Source: Acidobacteriota bacterium (GTDB taxonomy: Bacteria; Acidobacteriota; Terriglobia; Acidiferrales; UBA7541). From it: a stretch of 37,390 bases of DNA. A program made the position numbers and the translations under genes. The DNA is taken from contig JABDEK010000038.1 in NCBI GenBank assembly GCA_013287135.1, forward strand, positions 1-37,390. The letters are read 5' to 3'. This document shows, one piece after another, positions 2,422-20,955 of the stretch. Position 1 is the first letter of the stretch, and every line of letters begins with the position of its first letter. The notes beneath the pieces were generated by a model. It was not told where the DNA came from. It worked only from the letters and a program-made list of their open reading frames with translations, and ran no database searches.

Positions 2422-4122
2422 ATGCACCCACTATTCAGGAAAAGTCTAATTGGGATACTGGCGGGCGCAACCGCCAGCTTGGCGTTGGCGCCCGCCCTCG
2501 GCCGTCCGCTATTGAGTGTTGTCTGGGGCATCGCTGTAGGCGGAATCTATTCTGCGAGCCTGCGCCCTACGCCTCGCGCGTATGTAGATTACCTTTTAAC
2601 GGGCGCCGCTTTGGGAATCCCGCTGTGGGGATTGATCAGTGTAATCGCAGTTCCGCTACTTTCCGGACAGATGCCGGAATGGAGCGCCGAACAGATGCGC
2701 TCGCATTTTCCCGCGCTGGTTGCGTGGGTGCTGTATGGCGCTGTGCTGGGCCTGATCACCCAGGGTTTGACCGATATTGCCGAGAGAGTGCTCGGTCCCG
2801 AGATTGCGAACATATCGCCCGCGCCTCGAGAAAAGAAACAGATCGTAATACTTGGTGGTGGCTTCGCGGGCATGCGGACGGCAGAGTGCTTAGAGAAGCA
2901 GCTGCAGCGTGACCCCGCAGTTTCGATTGCTTTGGTGAGCGAGACGAACGCGCTTCTATTTACACCCATGCTCGCCGAAGTCGCTGGTGGCAGCCTGGAA
3001 CCCAGTCATATCAGCACACCGTTGCGTAGCAGCCTGCATCGTACAGAGTTCATCCGTGGACGGGTCGGCGCGATTGATCTGGAAGCCCGCCGTGTGATTT
3101 TGGACACGGATCACCCTCCCGGCGAAAGCAGCTCGCGGCGTGAGATTCCTTATGACCAATTGGTCCTAGCTGTTGGCTCCGTTTCAAATTATTTGGGTAT
3201 GGCGAATATCGAGAAGCTCGCTTTCAACTTCAAGAGTCTGCTGGACGCCATCCGAATCCGCAATCACGTCATCGAGATGTTTGAACGCGCCGACCGCGAG
3301 CCCGAATTCATCCGTGCACAGACTCTTCTTACCTTTGTAATCGCGGGCGGAGGTTTCGCGGGCGTCGAACTCGCGGGGGCTTTGAACGACTTTGCGCATG
3401 GGATTCTGGCCGATTATCCCAACTTGCGTCGAGAGGACCTGAGCGTGGTGCTGGTTCATGCGGGCGGCCGCATCCTGCCAGAACTAAGCGAGTCATTGGC
3501 ACGTTATGCACAGGGCAGGATGGAAGCGCGCGGAGTTACTTTCCGCCTGAATACGCGTCTGACCGATGTGAATCCCGGAGTCGTGTCCGTAAGCAACGGT
3601 GAGATCCGCGCGCAGACTCTCGTGTGGACGGCAGGAACAGGTCCGAATCCGCTGCTGAAGTCGCTTCCTGTGGAAAAAGACAAGCGCGGCGCCCTGGTTG
3701 TTGGGAACACGCTCGAGTTGCGCGGTTGTCCAGGGGTGTGGGCCCTGGGTGATTGTGCCGCACTTACCGATGCGAGCTCGGGAAAGCCCTGTCCGCCCAC
3801 TGCTCAATTTGCCGTGCGGGAGGCGGAAGTGCTCGCGAAAAATATTTGCGCGGAACTTCGGGGCGGATCCAAAGAGAGCTTTCATTTCGACTCACTGGGA
3901 GCGCTTTGCGTCGTGGGGCACCAGTCGGCTTGTGCTGAACTGGCAATTCCGTTCGTGAGGAACAAGTCCGTGCGCTTTTCCGGACTGTTCGCATGGCTCC
4001 TATGGAGAGGAATATACCTTTCGAAATTGCCAGGTCTGGAAAGAAAGATTCGGGTGCTGATCGATTGGACGATCGAGCTTTTCTTCCCGCGCGATATCGT
4101 TCAAACCATCGATTTACAGTGA
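2422..4122 (+). CDS. Type II NADH dehydrogenase with extra N-terminal membrane module
   Basis: 566 residues. Residues about 138-566 form a FAD-dependent NADH:quinone oxidoreductase (NDH-2): GGGFAG at 145-150 for FAD, a second GGGFAG at 309-314 for NADH, a WALGDCA flavin motif, and a C-terminal amphipathic end of the kind that holds NDH-2 on the membrane. It would pass electrons from NADH to quinone without pumping. Usual NDH-2 length is about 400-450 residues. The first 125 residues are additional and hydrophobic (about 7-25, 33-46, 60-80, 97-117) and resemble one repeat unit of the protein encoded directly downstream ([16 protein letters not shown] compares with SLVGHILYGLILGI there). The next gene's ribosome site overlaps this stop codon, so the two are co-translated. 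NDH-2 assignment is strong; the role of the module is unknown. Confidence 0.88.
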
Positions 4123-7104: not shown

Positions 7105-7130
7105 GGGAACATCATTTTCTTCTTGTTGTC
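7105..7130 (+). promoter_or_regulatory. Candidate ECF-type promoter
   Basis: GGGAAC (7105-7110) and GTC (7128-7130) are separated by 17 bases, matching the general GGAAC-N16/17-GTC layout of ECF sigma promoters. It lies immediately before the sigma gene start at 7134/7140, so a transcript from it would have almost no leader. Autoregulation is an inference; the short motif may also be chance. Confidence 0.35.
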
Positions 7131-7133
7131 GGG

Positions 7134-7775
7134 ATGAACATGGCGCAGCCGCAATTGGAATCCACCGAGGCAGAGCTAATCAAGCGTGTTTGCGGAGGGG
7201 AACCGCAGGCGTTTGAAGAATTGCTTCGCCCCTATGAGCGCTTGGTCTATGCGACTGCGATTTCGATATTGCGAAACCCAGCCGACGCGGAGGAAGTCGC
7301 CCAGGAGGCGGTGCTGAAGGCATTCTCGAAGCTCTCAAGCTTCCGCGGAGAATCTAGATTTAGCACTTGGCTCGTGCAAATCACCTACAACGAAGCCAGG
7401 ATGAAGTTGCGAAGGGAGCGTCAGCATCTTTACGAGTCGATTGACCGCGAGCAGCAAGACCAAGAAGGCGAGTATTGGCCGAGGGACTTTGCGGATTGGC
7501 GACCCATCCCTTCCGAGCTGCTCGAAAAGAAAGAGGTTCGCGAGGCTTTGCAGAATGGAATCAATTCTCTCAGCCCGATGTATCGGGAGATCGTAATCTT
7601 GAGGGATGTCCAGAATTTGAATCTCAAGGACACAGCGGCAGTTCTTGGAATTCCGGAAGGAAGCGTGAAAACGCGGCTTCATCGCGCGAGGTTGCAATTG
7701 AGAGACTTTCTAGCGCCAGGCATCGATGGTAGCTGGAGCTCGGGGCAGAATTACCGGAAAGTCAGGGCCTGGTAA
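7134..7775 (+). CDS. ECF sigma factor (RpoE-like)
   Basis: 213 residues from ATG 7134. Region 2 covers about residues 25-95 with the core-binding helix (NPADAEEVAQEAVLKAFSKL) and the -10 recognition part (FRGESRFSTWLVQITYNEA). A linker of about 45 acidic residues follows, and region 4 (about 140-200) has the helix-turn-helix TAAVLGIPEGSVKTRLHRAR. It directs RNA polymerase to a set of stress promoters. No ribosome site precedes 7134 or 7140; a GTG at 7017 does have one (GGGAGGGG), giving a 252-residue alternative that overlaps the previous gene. A zinc-finger anti-sigma gene follows 15 bases later, so the pair is very likely a sigma/anti-sigma switch. Its regions are clearly related to the sigma part of the gene at 8895. 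Confidence 0.92.
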   Translation: MNMAQPQLESTEAELIKRVCGGEPQAFEELLRPYERLVYATAISILRNPADAEEVAQEAVLKAFSKLSSFRGESRFSTWLVQITYNEARMKLRRERQHLYESIDREQQDQEGEYWPRDFADWRPIPSELLEKKEVREALQNGINSLSPMYREIVILRDVQNLNLKDTAAVLGIPEGSVKTRLHRARLQLRDFLAPGIDGSWSSGQNYRKVRAW

Positions 7776-7790
7776 AAAGGGAAGGTTGCT

Positions 7791-8036
7791 ATGAGCACCG
7801 TTGAAATCAGTTGCGTCGAAGTCTGGCGGGAAATTTCCAATTATCTTGACGGGGAAATTTCGGTCGAACTACGCGAAAGGATGCGCACTCACTTTGAGGT
7901 CTGCGACCACTGTACCGCGGTGCTTGATGGGACGCGGAACATCGTACAACTTGTCGGAGATGGGAGGATCTTTCCAATGCCGGATGGATTCAGTGAACGG
8001 TTGTACAAGAAGATTCGCGAGCGCCTGTCGCCGTAG
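7791..8036 (+). CDS. Zinc-finger (zf-HC2) anti-sigma factor
   Basis: 81 residues, with a GGGAAGG ribosome site. It has the anti-sigma zinc-binding pattern: an early Cys (SCVEVWREISNYLDGEI) followed by H-x3-C-x2-C (HFEVCDHC, about residues 35-42). There is no transmembrane segment, so it is a soluble anti-sigma protein that would hold the upstream sigma factor and may release it when zinc or cysteine chemistry changes. Its length and layout match the anti-sigma protein at 10718. Its last 47 bases overlap the end of the SnoaL-like gene on the other strand. Confidence 0.85.
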   Translation: MSTVEISCVEVWREISNYLDGEISVELRERMRTHFEVCDHCTAVLDGTRNIVQLVGDGRIFPMPDGFSERLYKKIRERLSP

Positions 8037-8466: not shown

Positions 8467-8894
8467 GTCAACTCCATCTGAATTGGAAGCCGTATTGCAT
8501 CTCTCGAGGCCTAGGAGTCGTCAGATCAAACCGGCGGCAGGTAGCCTCGGAACAGACTCGATTTCAAGACTAGTCGCCACCAGTGCGGCATTTCGCTTCG
8601 CACTTTTTATCGGATGATTACGCGCACGATGTGAAAGTCAACATCCGTACGTGTGATGTGATTGAAATAGTTAGTTCCTTTCAGATTTCAGATGAACAGA
8701 CCAGCATTCCTACCGGCGGACTGTTTCAGATGCCGGCCGCTTTCGATACGGACTTCGCGAGATGAGACGGTGGGGAAACGAAAAAGATGCGAAAAATCTG
8801 CTTGGCCGGCGGGGAGGCGCCCTAAGGTTGCGCGCAGGCAAACCAGAGACGTAAACTTGGCGATCGTGGATCAGCGCCATCTGACGGTGGGCGA
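8467..8894 (+). other. Divergent intergenic region, no gene seen
   Basis: 428 bases between the SnoaL-like gene (leftward) and the AhpD-sigma fusion gene (rightward). Short frames at 8583-8765 and 8692-8898 show no family pattern. Both promoters must lie here, but no clear -35/-10 pair was identified. Confidence 0.5.
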
Positions 8895-10721
8895 ATGAGC
8901 TTTCTCAGCGAAGTTCGACTCAAAGACAAATTCGGGCCCTTTGTTGAGTTTCAAGCGGGGCTGGGATTCGTCCCGAATCTTGTTCTAGCACAAAGCTTGC
9001 TGCCTCGGCTCATCGAGGCCCAGGCGATGCTTGAAAGTGCCGTGCGCTTGCGGGAAGGAGCGATTCCCCGAGTCCAGAAGGAACGAATCCTTCTAATTGT
9101 TGCAGCGGAGCGACAAGACACGTATTGCGTAGCCTTGGATAGCAAGATCTTGTCTTCGCTTGGCCTTCTGGAAGTTCAAATCGATAGTCTCTTGGCCGAC
9201 TACCGGAACGTGGATCTCTCGGGATCTGAGTTAGCCTGTCTGCAATTTTGTCTCAAACTAAGCCACCATGCCCCCTCCGTGTGTTCGGAAGACATTGATG
9301 CGTTGCGGGCGTGCGGATTCGGGGACGAATCAATATTCGAAGCCGTCGTCGTAACGGCCTTAGCCGTTTACCGCTGCACGCTGTCGCTGGGGTTGGGCCC
9401 GGAGCCGGATTTCGGAGCGCGAAAGCTCCCGTCGACGAGAATCGTTCAGCAACATGGCCCAGCGTCCCACGGCTTGTTGTCCGGCTCTCATGAGGCGGGA
9501 CAACGAAACGGGCCCTATGTGCGCGCTCCCTACCTGAGCCCCAAGACATTTTCACCTTTTGCCATCGTTCAGAAGAGTCATGGATTCATACCGAACTTTT
9601 TCCGCGCTCAGAGTTTACGACCCGACTTGCTCGAAGCGGAGCTAGAAGCAGTGGGCAGGATCCTGCTTCCCGAGGAAGCTCTGACCCGGGTGCAAAAGGA
9701 ATCCATTTTGCTCGCGGTGTCGGCAGCGAATCTCAACTCCTATTGTGTTGCCATGCATTGCAACCTGTTACGCGGCTTGGGTAAGCCCTCGGAGGAGGGC
9801 GACCAGATCGCGGTGGACTATCATGAGGCGAACCTGTCGGTCGCCGACGAGGCGCTGCTTGACTTCGCTGTCAAATTGGGAACGCGCGGTCCGGAGTTTT
9901 CTGGTCGGGACGTTGTCAAGCTCCAAGCGCTTGGTTTCACTGAAGAACAGATTTTGGAATGCGTGGTGGTAACCGCTCTCAATAATTTCGCAAACACACT
10001 GCAAATGGGGCTCGGAATCGAACCGGATTTTGCGCCTCCTCCGGCCTTTGAAGAAAATAAAGTGCATCTTGCGGACGCAGTCGCCACTCCTATTGGTCGC
10101 GAGGGCGGAGTGTATCGCGGCGACGTAATCCAGGACCTAGACGCTGGACTAGTCGCCCAGGCGCAGGATGGGAAGCTGGAGGCCTTCGAAGAGTTGGTTC
10201 GCCGTCATACCCAGTTGATTTATCGCACCCTGATGGCGATGTTGGGAAAGCCTCCCGATGCGCAGGACGCCCTGCAGGATACGCTCTTGAACGCGTTCAA
10301 GCACATCGGCGGATTTCAGGGGCGGTCGAAGTTTTCCACTTGGCTGGTCAGTATTGCCAGGAATACGGCGCTGCAGCGGTTACGGGCCAGAAAAGACGTA
10401 GAGAGCCTGGATGAGCCTGAGCGCGGGGAAGAGGGCGACTTTCGCCCTCGTCAAGTGCGGTCTTGGGCGGACAACCCCGAACAGTTGCATTCTAAATCGG
10501 AAATCCAGCAACTCGTTGAGGCGGGGATCTTGGGGCTCCCCGCCAAGTACCGCGTGGTAGTCGTCCTCCGCGATATCGAGCAGCTTTCAACGGACGAAGT
10601 TGCCCGGGAGCTGGGCCTAGGCGTGCCTGCTGTGAAGACGCGTCTGCTCAGGGGACGGCTCATGCTGCGAGAGTGGCTTTCGCCTCACTTCACAGCCAGT
10701 ACCAAGGGAGCAGTAAAATGA
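8895..10721 (+). CDS. Fusion of two AhpD-like (peroxidase-related) domains with an ECF sigma factor
   Basis: 608 residues. Residues about 10-175 and 215-380 are two related AhpD/carboxymuconolactone-decarboxylase-fold domains: 'GFVPNLVLAQSLLP' pairs with 'GFIPNFFRAQSLRP', and 'RVQKERILLIVAAERQDTYC' with 'RVQKESILLAVSAANLNSYC'. The second keeps C284, H288 and C289; the first keeps only C78, so it looks inactive as a peroxidase. Residues 420-600 are an ECF sigma factor: region 2 (DAQDALQDTLLNAFKHIGGF, then KFSTWLVSIARNTALQRL) and region 4 (TDEVARELGLGVPAVKTRLLRG). The stop overlaps the anti-sigma start (ATGA). A plausible reading is a sigma factor whose release is set by a thiol redox state in its own N-terminus. 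The fusion is continuous in one frame with no sign of a stop or shift. Confidence 0.9.
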   Translation: MSFLSEVRLKDKFGPFVEFQAGLGFVPNLVLAQSLLPRLIEAQAMLESAVRLREGAIPRVQKERILLIVAAERQDTYCVALDSKILSSLGLLEVQIDSLLADYRNVDLSGSELACLQFCLKLSHHAPSVCSEDIDALRACGFGDESIFEAVVVTALAVYRCTLSLGLGPEPDFGARKLPSTRIVQQHGPASHGLLSGSHEAGQRNGPYVRAPYLSPKTFSPFAIVQKSHGFIPNFFRAQSLRPDLLEAELEAVGRILLPEEALTRVQKESILLAVSAANLNSYCVAMHCNLLRGLGKPSEEGDQIAVDYHEANLSVADEALLDFAVKLGTRGPEFSGRDVVKLQALGFTEEQILECVVVTALNNFANTLQMGLGIEPDFAPPPAFEENKVHLADAVATPIGREGGVYRGDVIQDLDAGLVAQAQDGKLEAFEELVRRHTQLIYRTLMAMLGKPPDAQDALQDTLLNAFKHIGGFQGRSKFSTWLVSIARNTALQRLRARKDVESLDEPERGEEGDFRPRQVRSWADNPEQLHSKSEIQQLVEAGILGLPAKYRVVVVLRDIEQLSTDEVARELGLGVPAVKTRLLRGRLMLREWLSPHFTASTKGAVK

Positions 10722-10960
10722 TCACATGTGAGGAATTCTTCGCGGAGTTCGCCGACTACATGGAGAACCAGGTGTCACCGGAGATCCGCAAGGAACTCAA
10801 TCTGCACTTGTCCCAGTGCCGCGCTTGCCGAGTACTCTACGATACCAGCCTCAAGACCGTCAAAATCGTAACTGAAAGTGGTTCGTTCGAATTACCTCAC
10901 AGTGTCTCCGACCCAATCATCGACTGTGTCATGGCGAAGCTGCGAAAAGACCGCAGTTAA
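10718..10960 (+). CDS. Zinc-finger anti-sigma factor for the AhpD-sigma fusion
   Basis: 80 residues from ATG 10718, which overlaps the sigma stop by 4 bases; AGGGAG lies 7 bases upstream. The zinc pattern is ITCEEF then H-x3-C-x2-C (HLSQCRAC). No membrane segment. It shares length and layout with the anti-sigma at 7791, including the ending (SDPIIDCVMAKLRKDRS compares with SERLYKKIRERLSP), so the two sigma/anti-sigma pairs probably arose by duplication, after or before one sigma gained AhpD domains. It should inhibit the sigma part of the upstream fusion. Its last 69 bases overlap an open frame on the other strand. Confidence 0.85.
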   Translation: MITCEEFFAEFADYMENQVSPEIRKELNLHLSQCRACRVLYDTSLKTVKIVTESGSFELPHSVSDPIIDCVMAKLRKDRS

Positions 10961-11719: not shown

Positions 11720-12562
11720 TCACTTCAACTCCTCAACACAAACAGCATCTTGGGTGGACTCATTCGTCCTTTCCGCTGCGGAAAGGACGAATGACCGTTG
11801 CATCACCGCCTGCGCAAATTCCTGCGGCGTTCGATCGGCCAGTGAGCTGTGTGGGCGCTGCTGATTGTAGTCACGCTTCCATCTCTGAATCTTTGACCGT
11901 GCAGCGGCCAGATCGAGGAACACTTCGACGTTCAAGCACTCGTCCCGCAGTCGGCCATTGAAGCTCTCGATATAGCCATTCTCAGCCGGCTTTCCAGACC
12001 GAATGAAATCTAGCTTCACGCCGGTCTGATGAGCCCAGTAATCCATTGCCTGACCAGCGAACTCCGAGCCGTTATCTGAAGTGATCGATTGGGGTGCTCC
12101 TCGCAGCGCAATCACACGCTCCAACTGTTCGGAAACTTTCTCTCCGGTCTGCGATCGATCGGCATGAGCGCACAAGCATTCGCGCGTGTACTGATCAACC
12201 ACCGTCAGGATTCTGAACCATCGCCCGTCCACCAGGCGGTCACTCACGAAGTCCATGCTCCACCTTTGGTTCGGATAACTCGCTTCTGCAAGCCTGATCC
12301 GTGCATGGGCTACTCTCTTGGCTCTCTTCTTCATCCGTAGCTCCAGCCCTTCTTCTCGGTAGAGTCGGTACACACGCTTCGTGTTCACGTGCCAACCTTC
12401 TCGCCGCAACAGGACCGTCAGTCTCCGATAACCGTAGCGGAGTCGCGTCGAAGCTAGATCCCGCAATCGTACTCGCAGTTCCCTCTGAGGATCGCGCCGG
12501 CTCTGGTAGCGATTCGTCCAACGCGTAATTCCGATCAGCCCGCAAGCGCGCAATTCATTCAA
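11720..12562 (-). CDS. IS3-family transposase orfB (DDE integrase core)
   Basis: 280 residues as an independent frame from a TTG at 12562; in life it is more likely read as a fusion with orfA by -1 frameshifting at 12619-12625. The N-terminal part is the HTH_21-like region (RLRYGYRRLTVLLRREGW), followed by the DDE core: RWSMDFVSD (first D), ITSDNGSEFAG (second D) and YIESFNGRLRDECL (E). The end PHSSLADRTPQEFA is typical of IS3. All catalytic residues are present, so the enzyme could be active. Close in type to the IS407-like group. It interrupts the start of the accessory region just after the tRNA fragment. Confidence 0.9.
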   Translation of the reverse strand: MNELRACGLIGITRWTNRYQSRRDPQRELRVRLRDLASTRLRYGYRRLTVLLRREGWHVNTKRVYRLYREEGLELRMKKRAKRVAHARIRLAEASYPNQRWSMDFVSDRLVDGRWFRILTVVDQYTRECLCAHADRSQTGEKVSEQLERVIALRGAPQSITSDNGSEFAGQAMDYWAHQTGVKLDFIRSGKPAENGYIESFNGRLRDECLNVEVFLDLAAARSKIQRWKRDYNQQRPHSSLADRTPQEFAQAVMQRSFVLSAAERTNESTQDAVCVEELK

Positions 12563-12612
12563 CTGGTACGCCTGTCGTATTTCGCGTACGAGTTCACGGC
12601 GCTTGGCGGGCT

Positions 12613-12879
12613 TCAGTGCTTTTTTGAGAGTACCTCCTGCAGGATGTGCTTATCCAACGTGAGGTCCGCCACGATCCCCTTCAGCTTGCGATTTTCTTCT
12701 CGCAGTTGCCTCAGCTCTCGCACCTCGTTCAATCCCAATCCTCCGTATCGACGCCTCCACCTGTAGACCGCCTGCGGCGTTACTCCCATCTCCCGGCAAA
12801 CCTCGATGACCTTCTTGCCTCCCTCGATCTGCCGTAAGGCATAGACGATTTGCTCCTCCGTGTGTCCCTTCCTCGGCAT
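12613..12879 (-). CDS. IS3-family transposase orfA (helix-turn-helix)
   Basis: 88 residues. A helix-turn-helix at residues about 20-45 (IEVCREMGVTPQAVYRWRRR) binds the element's ends; a leucine-zipper-like stretch follows (LRQLREENRKLKGIVADLTL) and the IS407-type ending DKHILQEVLSKK. Its frame runs through the slippery AAAAAAG and stops 4 bases later, so the normal product is orfA alone while a fraction of ribosomes shift into orfB. Start by ATG at 12879. Length is normal for the family. Confidence 0.9.
   Translation of the reverse strand: MPRKGHTEEQIVYALRQIEGGKKVIEVCREMGVTPQAVYRWRRRYGGLGLNEVRELRQLREENRKLKGIVADLTLDKHILQEVLSKKH
12619..12625 (-). promoter_or_regulatory. Programmed -1 frameshift heptamer (A6G) of the IS3 element
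   Basis: On the minus strand the orfA codons read TCA AAA AAG CAC TGA, giving the slippery heptamer A-AAA-AAG. A shift of one base back enters the orfB frame (AAA AAA GCA CTG AAG), which is open up to the DDE core. The position, four bases before the orfA stop, is typical for IS3 elements making OrfAB. Confidence 0.8.
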
Positions 12880-19072: not shown

Positions 19073-19173
19073 GAGTCCAAAGTTGCTGTTCCATAAGCAC
19101 TACGCACAGCATCTGATAACGCGTAAGGAGTTCAGTTTTGGTGTCTTAGGCTGTGCTGGCAGAAGAGAATTTC

Positions 19174-20955
19174 ATGGACGTGAGTCAAGCATGGGGTGCT
19201 GATATGGAAAATAACAACGACCAAATCGCATTCGGTAAGGCCGTTGAAACAGTAGCGGATACACTTCTTAAGTCGCTCGGATCCGACTTTCGTTGGGAAC
19301 TGGCGTTCCCAGATTTGACCGAAGATATAGTCGCGAGACTTCAAGCCTATGGGAACCAGGAATCGTTTCCTGCAGGCGCAGTGCTGTACACCCACGGCGA
19401 CCGCAAGATCGATATGTTCGTTGTTCTTGAGGGCGAAGTTGAGATCTACCTTCCTTCAACAGAGGATGACGCCAAAGTCTTTGCCCGCTATCGCAAGCAT
19501 AACTTCACCGGGGAATTTAACCTCCTTAACTCTCAGGGTGCACTAGTTGAAGCGCGAACTATCGCGCCGAGCACGTTGCTCCGCATATCACGCACACGAT
19601 TCGAACGATTGATGCGCACGGAGGGAGACATCGCAAATGTGATCGTGGCAGCATGCATCTGGCGTCGGATTGGGATTGTCAAGGCAGCATCAGGCGGGGT
19701 GATTCTGCAAGGCAGATCCGGTGACGACCAGATGATGCTTCTTCAGCGTTTCTTCGTACGCAACAACTATCCGCACAGAATCGTAAACGTATCTGCAGAG
19801 GACGCCGCAAACGATTGCGGACCGCTGCCGGCAGTCATACTTTCTGACGGGCGGACCATGCGACGCCCGTCCATTCCCGAGCTGGCGGATGAGTTGGGCA
19901 TCACCGAATTGCCGGATTCCGCAATGACCTGCGATGTAGCTGTCGTCGGAGCAGGTCCTGCAGGTCTCGCGGCTGCGGTCTATGCAGCCTCCGAAGGACT
20001 CTGCACGACAGTTATCGAGGGGATGGCGCCTGGGGGGCAAGCAGGTGCGAGTTCAAAGATAGAAAATTATCTGGGATTTCCTGCAGGCATCAGTGGGCAA
20101 CAACTTGCAACTCGTGCACAGCTACAGGCTTTGAAATTCGGCGTACATTTCGCTATCTCGCGAGAAGTCATAACGGTCGAGCAACTAGATGGCATTCACA
20201 GGCTAACGTTGCAGGGCGGTCACCAAATATGTGCGCGCACAGTTGTAGTGGCGTCTGGTGCTCAGTATCGCAAGCTCGGTGTCGAAAATTACCTGAAATA
20301 CGAAAATCGCGGACTTTATTACGCCGCCACCGCGATGGAGTCGGAGTTATGTCGAGACCATGAGGTTATCATTGTAGGCGGTGGCAACTCCGCTGGGCAG
20401 GCATCGTTGTTTCTCTCCGGTATCGCAAAGCATGTGCATCACCTTGTGCGTGGACCATCCTTCGCGGAAACGATGTCGCAGTATCTGATTTCCCGCGTCG
20501 AGAACTCGAGCCATATAACCGTCCACACCAAATCTGAAATTGTTGAACTGGATGGAGAGCCGTCCCTTGAGAGAGTGACATGGGCCAACTTGAACACAGG
20601 GGAGCGCACAGTAAGGAATATCTCCACCGTCTTCGTGATGGTCGGCGCCGAGCCGAACACCGGTTGGTTATTTGGTACGGTCCGGCTCGACAAGAAAGGC
20701 TTCATCCTTACCGGAGGCACAGATGGCTTCGATAAAAGCCCATACGCGACCAGTATGCCGGGCATCTATGCGGTCGGTGATGCGCGCGCAAACTCAGTCA
20801 AGCGCGTTGCATCAGCTGTTGGCGAGGGCTCCGTGGTCATATCGTACATTCATCGCTACCTCGCCGATCACAGAAACCAACTTTCGGCTCGACCAAATTC
20901 CACTCTGGCCGCGTTCCGATCGGTAGACGCTGCATCTGTAGAAGCGAATGCGTGA
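19174..20955 (+). CDS. Cyclic-nucleotide-binding domain fused to thioredoxin-reductase-like flavoprotein
   Basis: 593 residues. Residues about 35-150 are a CNB-type beta-barrel (FPAGAVLYTHGDRKIDMFVV, then GEFNLL); about 180-250 a thioredoxin/glutaredoxin-like segment without its CxxC; from about 255 a two-dinucleotide-fold flavoprotein: VVGAGPAGLAAAVYAA for FAD, VIIVGGGNSAGQAS for NADPH, and GIYAVGDARA. At the place of the CATC redox pair of thioredoxin reductase it reads YYAATAMESELC, so it cannot reduce thioredoxin in the normal way. Proteins with this layout are often labelled thioredoxin-disulfide reductase but are probably NAD(P)H oxidoreductases with another partner. Start uncertain: ATG 19174 has a weak AGAAGAG; GTG 19153 is also possible. 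Confidence 0.88.
   Translation: MDVSQAWGADMENNNDQIAFGKAVETVADTLLKSLGSDFRWELAFPDLTEDIVARLQAYGNQESFPAGAVLYTHGDRKIDMFVVLEGEVEIYLPSTEDDAKVFARYRKHNFTGEFNLLNSQGALVEARTIAPSTLLRISRTRFERLMRTEGDIANVIVAACIWRRIGIVKAASGGVILQGRSGDDQMMLLQRFFVRNNYPHRIVNVSAEDAANDCGPLPAVILSDGRTMRRPSIPELADELGITELPDSAMTCDVAVVGAGPAGLAAAVYAASEGLCTTVIEGMAPGGQAGASSKIENYLGFPAGISGQQLATRAQLQALKFGVHFAISREVITVEQLDGIHRLTLQGGHQICARTVVVASGAQYRKLGVENYLKYENRGLYYAATAMESELCRDHEVIIVGGGNSAGQASLFLSGIAKHVHHLVRGPSFAETMSQYLISRVENSSHITVHTKSEIVELDGEPSLERVTWANLNTGERTVRNISTVFVMVGAEPNTGWLFGTVRLDKKGFILTGGTDGFDKSPYATSMPGIYAVGDARANSVKRVASAVGEGSVVISYIHRYLADHRNQLSARPNSTLAAFRSVDAASVEANA

Follow-up and report, generated by a model that had tools for sequence, protein, structure and literature searches.

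An acidobacterial ECF sigma factor fused to two CMD/AhpD-family domains and paired with a zf-HC2 anti-sigma factor: a possible redox or electrophile switch

Does a sigma factor that carries a peroxidase-like fold within its own polypeptide sense a chemical signal directly, or does the added part serve another function? The question is raised by a gene from a soil bacterium, located at 8895..10721 on the plus strand of the window, that is, the whole 37,390-nucleotide stretch of acidobacterial DNA analysed here. A sequence-only reading had described a single 608-residue protein joining two peroxidase-fold domains to sigma regions 2 and 4, and this architecture (CMD1-CMD2-sigma2-sigma4) was confirmed by the open reading frame, by Pfam and NCBIfam and by the relatives of the protein. 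Pfam returned the CMD family in two stretches (1.1e-09), Sigma70_r2 at residues 434-500 (3.6e-17; 10194..10394, plus strand) and Sigma70_r4_2 at residues 542-591 (2.4e-12; 10518..10667, plus strand), and the ECF superfamily profile TIGR02937 scored 98.7 bits versus a cut-off of 42.9. The SigR/SigH model TIGR02947 was absent among the best 25 of the 94 NCBIfam matches for the fused protein. The peroxidase-related family TIGR01926 matched in two stretches with 171 bits over the whole protein, the cut-off being 81.8. When the domains were scanned singly, CMD2 (residues 206-390; 9510..10064, plus strand) exceeded this value with 113 bits, and CMD1 (residues 1-184; 8895..9446, plus strand), a degenerate domain of the same type, fell below it with 64.8 bits. 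The cysteines of the protein occupy positions 78, 115, 119, 130, 140, 161, 284, 289 and 356.

The fused gene is coupled to a small gene at 10718..10960 on the plus strand, encoding an 80-residue anti-sigma factor (ZAS) assigned to zf-HC2 by Pfam (1.8e-05). The ATG of the anti-sigma gene at 10718 overlaps the sigma TGA within the sequence ATGA (10718-10721), confirming the coupling previously proposed, and a ZAS gene is present at the 3' end of all 11 fused genes. No membrane helix was seen in the ZAS on inspection by eye. An alignment of 17 ZAS proteins shows C4, H30, C34 and C37 in every one of them; because six of the 17 do not belong to a fused sigma, the C-H-C-C pattern is not specific to the fusion. 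The ZAS shows the RsrA-type ligand pattern (HxxxCxxC and an N-terminal Cys), with a spacing that we take to be that of RsrA, and the RsrA model TIGR03988 returned 27.6 bits, below its cut-off of 62.5. SigR-RsrA of Streptomyces is a redox sigma factor with a soluble ZAS, and the pair described here resembles it in the small ZAS partner. It differs in the score of the RsrA model and in having CMD domains on the sigma factor, which to our knowledge are lacking in SigR.

The sequence-only reading had named an assembly artefact as one way in which its proposal might fail. The same fused frame was found in ten other acidobacterial genomes, two of the copies being incomplete (G167 and G136), and the fusion is therefore due neither to chance nor to an assembly error. 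One of these fused proteins, encoded by contig L039 of the MAG Acidobacteriaceae bacterium BP_10, is 76% identical to that of the window. A contig scan by exact short peptides, from which absence elsewhere is not to be deduced, returned one locus. The genome samples were all taken within the phylum of the window, Acidobacteriota. In the order sample (95 genomes) G066 alone gave a further full-length match, with 67% identity. At 1e-55, 9 of the 399 genomes in the class sample matched, eight of them with fusions (the window's own genome G000, G066, G190, G173, G160, G394, G136 and G167) and one, G043, with a sigma factor devoid of CMD. Matches at 1e-52 were obtained for 5 of the 396 phylum-sample genomes, comprising three fusions (G000 again, G515 and G537) and the unfused sigma factors of G551 and G591. 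Plasmids yielded 874 matching records; in no record did a single place span 80% of the query. The tandem CMD pair is clear in 9 of the 11 fusions, including G160, which shows a gap inside domain 2; in the G167 protein the core of domain 2 is missing, and the frame of G136, which opens within a CMD domain behind a stop, is incomplete.

The patchy spread of the fusion (8/399 class-sample and 3/396 phylum-sample genomes, the window's own counted in both), the decay of CMD1 in the window's lineage and the two incomplete copies might be expected if the fusion were a decaying accident, generated by read-through of neighbouring genes and without regulatory consequence. This explanation is very improbable, however, as the architecture is common to different classes at 49% identity (G515) and purifying selection is acting on all three domains. 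A Nei-Gojobori count performed with our own script returned dN/dS values, for the window versus L039, of 0.28 for CMD1, 0.08 for CMD2, the lowest, and 0.16 for the sigma part. The comparison with G066, in which synonymous sites are nearly saturated, gave 0.16, 0.16 and 0.12 respectively, CMD2 not being the most constrained domain there. The linkers (26 and 18 codons) are much less constrained than the domains.

The relationships among the CMD domains were examined in a tree of 40 domains, from which aligned spans of 130 residues or fewer, domain E-values of 1e-13 or higher and six duplicate loci were excluded. A single clade (support 0.97) contained the fused first domains, the fused second domains and four linked CMDs, and stood apart from the other sampled acidobacterial CMDs. 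In G551 and at the second G515 locus, the sigma and ZAS genes are followed by a CMD encoded on its own; the first G515 locus shows the fused gene, its ZAS, then another ECF, another ZAS and a CMD, and in G167 a separate CMD comes after the ZAS that accompanies the fused gene. The CMD of G136 groups with the standalone CMD of G167 (0.99). In the sigma tree three unfused sigma factors (G551, G591 and the second locus of G515) branch among the fused ones (support 0.78). Among 28 ordinary ECF-ZAS loci (L041-L068), spanning at most about 1.5 kb per side, a CMD occurs at one, the sigma-ZAS-CMD row of G074, and it falls outside the clade. Matches to the linked-CMD profile below 1e-50 were confined, within the class sample, to the eight fusion genomes; in the class of G515, 3 of 41 genomes matched at 1e-42. 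Also in G515, a 670-residue frame (L083 8166-10178, minus strand) has a sigma match at residues 469-660 and a front part that by eye resembles a gene separate in L085. The link of one CMD clade to ECF-ZAS pairs, in fused and unfused form and with Glu, Cys and His kept, argues that the CMD would act on the signal or on the sigma factor.

The active site was read with residue roles that we assume to be those of AhpD. In domain 2, residues E269, Y283, C284 and H288 correspond to site residues of solved relatives, C284 being taken as the reactive cysteine; the codons of C284, H288 and C289 lie at 9744-9746, 9756-9758 and 9759-9761, plus strand. In domain 1 the codon of C78 is at 9126-9128, plus strand, and the His position is occupied by Asp. 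The residues listed in the sequence-only reading were thus all correct. The contrast it drew between a domain with C284/H288/C289 and one with only C78 holds in the window and fails as a general rule, as Glu, Cys and His are all retained in five of ten fused first domains; Glu is lost in G160, His in the window, L039, G190 and G394, and Cys also in G394. Among second domains, the ten that hold this region all retain Glu, Cys and His, and each of the 11 fused proteins has at least one domain with the complete site. C289 is retained in nine of ten second domains, with Gly in G190, and in two of the four linked CMDs, with Ser in the other two.

The catalytic AhpD signature (CxxC with Glu and His) was not found in domain 2 of the window, where E269, C284 and H288 are present and the first Cys is replaced by Asn. 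This first Cys is missing from 24 of 24 clade domains, which have Asn, Asp, Ser or Glu instead, making ordinary AhpD turnover doubtful. Its loss is neither tied to sensing nor special to the fusion, since 11 of the 16 non-clade rows of the site table are devoid of it too; the three solved relatives 2prr, 6k40 and 2oyo have it. Simple peroxidase chemistry in the fused CMD domains therefore seems doubtful, and without CxxC the domains may instead be sensors with a single Cys, sites for an electrophile or ligand, or altered enzymes.

These data bear on the possibility that the CMD is an output enzyme of the sigma factor's own regulon that was later fused, the ZAS alone sensing the signal and the fusion only guaranteeing co-production. 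Precedent comes from the ECF41 group, where, according to PMC3426412, separate CMD genes are the sole detected targets of two sigma factors and no signal-transduction role was observed for the linked proteins. The CMD is likewise last in the unfused sigma-ZAS-CMD rows, and G537 has a further clade CMD standing alone (L116 1486-2349, minus strand), the 3.5 kb read there containing neither a sigma nor a ZAS match. We regard an output role as unlikely, because CxxC is absent here, in contrast to the ECF41-linked CMDs, and because Glu, Cys or His has been lost from CMD1 in five of ten proteins though the fusion persists, which would be odd for a pure enzyme.

The genes surrounding the fusion were then considered. 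In the window, a separate ordinary ECF sigma gene (7122..7775, plus strand, with a start codon of our choosing) and its zf-HC2 anti-sigma gene (7791..8036, plus strand), both recognised by Pfam and NCBIfam, form a pair (7122-8036) just 5' of the fused gene, between it and an NDH-2-like oxidoreductase gene (2422..4122, plus strand). Bufferin-type genes encoding BufB (MNIO), DUF2063 and DoxX occupy the contig start (13..2298, plus strand), BufB scoring above its cut-off; a bufferin precursor gene, if any, would fall past the contig end. The fused genes of G173 and G394 have NDH-2 and DM13 genes nearby; that of G190 has an NDH-2 gene, together with DM13-like frames identified by eye only. MsrP and MsrQ, each above cut-off, are encoded 5' of the fused gene in G394. 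Three genomes have a sigma gene of SigR/SigH type (TIGR02947 as best model, though under its cut-off) right beside the fused gene or its ZAS, namely G160 (L089 2467-3021), G167 (L092 9144-9785) and G394 (L090 7302-7823). A comparison of the G160 copy with ten fusion genomes returned five matches at 1e-60 or better, corresponding to the three adjoining copies and to two others on the same contigs, about 22 kb away in G167 and about 10 kb away in G394; weaker matches (4e-29 or worse) occurred in G190 and G000. Some of these neighbours, read at fusion loci alone, suggest thiol, methionine-sulfoxide or copper stress. Elsewhere in the window, a 600-residue frame at 19153-20955 combines a cyclic-nucleotide-binding domain with a pyridine nucleotide-disulfide oxidoreductase according to Pfam, and two adjoining frames at 11720-12879 on the minus strand look by eye like an IS3-type transposase pair.

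Structural comparisons were directed to the CMD domains. The nearest solved structures by sequence were 2prr, 6k40 and 2oyo (3.5e-20 to 2.7e-18), via domain 2, and the same entries were among the best structural matches of a predicted model of this domain. The AlphaFold model of domain 2, obtained from four alignment rows, had a mean pLDDT of 62.8, with residues 1-54 and 171-189 below 50, and was used for the fold match only; the whole-protein model, from two alignment rows, had a mean pLDDT of 38.7 and was set aside. Domain 2 thus shares with these TIGR01926 proteins the fold and the Glu/Tyr/Cys/His site. It differs from them in being a single-Cys domain joined to a sigma factor, the solved proteins being stand-alone and endowed with CxxC. 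Single-Cys relatives of this fold use other substrates; among the structural matches was the Bmp8 debrominase with substrate in its C82A variant (6ohj, E 3.0e-03). In addition, between 6 and 12 chains are present in several of the solved relatives. Instead of sensing redox state, the CMD pair might accordingly bind a ligand, such as a small molecule, or an electrophile, or assemble the sigma factor into a multimer, and in this way control access to RNA polymerase or to the ZAS. This role also appears unlikely to us, as the Glu, Cys and His kept in every fused protein, the ZAS pattern and the redox-related neighbours fit a redox function better.

Upstream of the fused gene we recognised a promoter-like element, TGAGACGG-N15-GATGC, at 8763..8790 on the plus strand, 132 nt 5' of the start codon, which is a candidate for an autoregulated promoter. 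Fourteen upstream stretches were scored and four of them (window, G190, G173 and G167) fit the pattern TGNGACGG-N15-GATRC, which starts 74 to 132 nt 5' of the start codon; the pattern is weak or missing before the other ten, namely the fused genes of L039, G066, G515, G537, G160 and G394 and four unfused ones. The window's genome, G173 and G167 each contain only this match, and four of seven strict matches lie directly before a fused gene. Genome-wide the pattern is not enriched, as eight genomes gave seven strict matches and the reversed control gave 12. There is some circularity in this test because the element was spotted by eye in the upstream stretches and tested afterwards, and common descent of the stretch is possible, G167 and G173 belonging to one genus and G190 lying near the window in the sigma tree. 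Other sigma-70-like boxes were seen by eye only. At the BP_10 locus, a short frame (L039 4143-4478) that by eye looks like the start of a sigma-54 AAA+ activator overlaps the start of the fused gene, and the upstream region there therefore seems rearranged.

Our preferred reading, to which we assign a probability of roughly 0.4, is a redox or electrophile switch in which the CMD domain and the ZAS jointly gate the ECF sigma factor as a two-part off-switch. In unstressed cells the zinc-bound ZAS would keep the sigma factor inactive, with the N-terminal CMD pair beside it as an attached sensor. The CMD2 site (E269, C284 and H288) would then meet an oxidant or electrophile, such as an organic hydroperoxide, hypochlorous acid or a quinone-like compound, and once modified would promote opening of the ZAS through thiol exchange or altered contact. 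Zinc would leave the ZAS, and the freed sigma factor would transcribe its own operon, perhaps via the pattern described above, together with nearby redox-repair genes. CMD1 may serve as a scaffold or pseudo-dimer partner, its own site having been lost in the window's lineage, and in unfused relatives the same CMD, encoded by the third gene after sigma and ZAS, would act in trans. The two-part switch is favoured by the clade linkage (0.97), the kept Glu, Cys and His, the dN/dS values below 0.3 versus L039, the invariant ZAS residues and the redox neighbours. It is opposed by the absence of the first Cys of CxxC, the loss of the CMD2 core in G167, the variability of C289, the occurrence of the C-H-C-C pattern beyond the fusion and a promoter pattern that is not enriched and is weak or missing at six fused genes.

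The direct sensing of peroxide or thiol state by the fused protein, suggested by the sequence-only reading, is plausible; the ZAS alone could also be the sensor. A more specific proposal, which we advance tentatively and consider somewhat unlikely, is that of a sensor and sigma factor in one protein, where a single-Cys AhpD-fold domain would take the hit of peroxide, HOCl or an electrophile and relay it to the ZAS, and where some loci would command the adjoining SigR-like sigma factor in a two-sigma circuit.

Finally, the fusion was compared with known systems. ECF41 sigma factors, as described in PMC3426412, carry a regulatory extension at the C-terminus, lack an obvious anti-sigma gene and are linked to separate CMDs that contain CxxC. 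The fused protein is similarly an ECF sigma factor tied to the CMD/AhpD family and has an extension with a proposed regulatory role; unlike ECF41, its CMD domains are N-terminal, fused and without CxxC, and a ZAS gene overlaps the sigma gene. Membership in ECF41 was rejected on three grounds: region 4 ends at residue 591 of 608 with no further domain after it, the ZAS gene overlaps by ATGA, and CxxC lacks its first Cys throughout the 24 clade domains. The contrast with ECF41 proposed beforehand was thus borne out. Among ECF sigma factors with N-terminal extensions, which likewise have an added part before sigma region 2, an example detailed in the reviews PMC8103513 and PMC8999054 is ECF36, with membrane helices and DUF2275; neither review names AhpD or CMD, and the former, dated 2021, states that no mechanistic information exists on N-terminal extensions. 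Our full-text literature search, based in part on incomplete texts, found no description of a CMD-sigma fusion; the claim that a fusion with a zf-HC2 partner was not known as described therefore stands for the literature covered and not for the 2021 NAR reclassification of ECF sigma factors, which lay outside the search and where a prior listing is possible.

The fusion is a new form of ECF sigma factor with a regulatory extension, distinct from ECF41. If the one-protein sensor proposed above is true, a former peroxidase fold serves as the receptor of a sigma factor, and a fold known as an output beside ECF41 can be built into the sigma factor itself. In this family the three parts occur both joined and separate, the site residues are conserved and a candidate promoter element is present, which makes sensing in cis by an enzyme-derived domain directly testable. 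A single protein may thus detect chemical damage and also activate genes.
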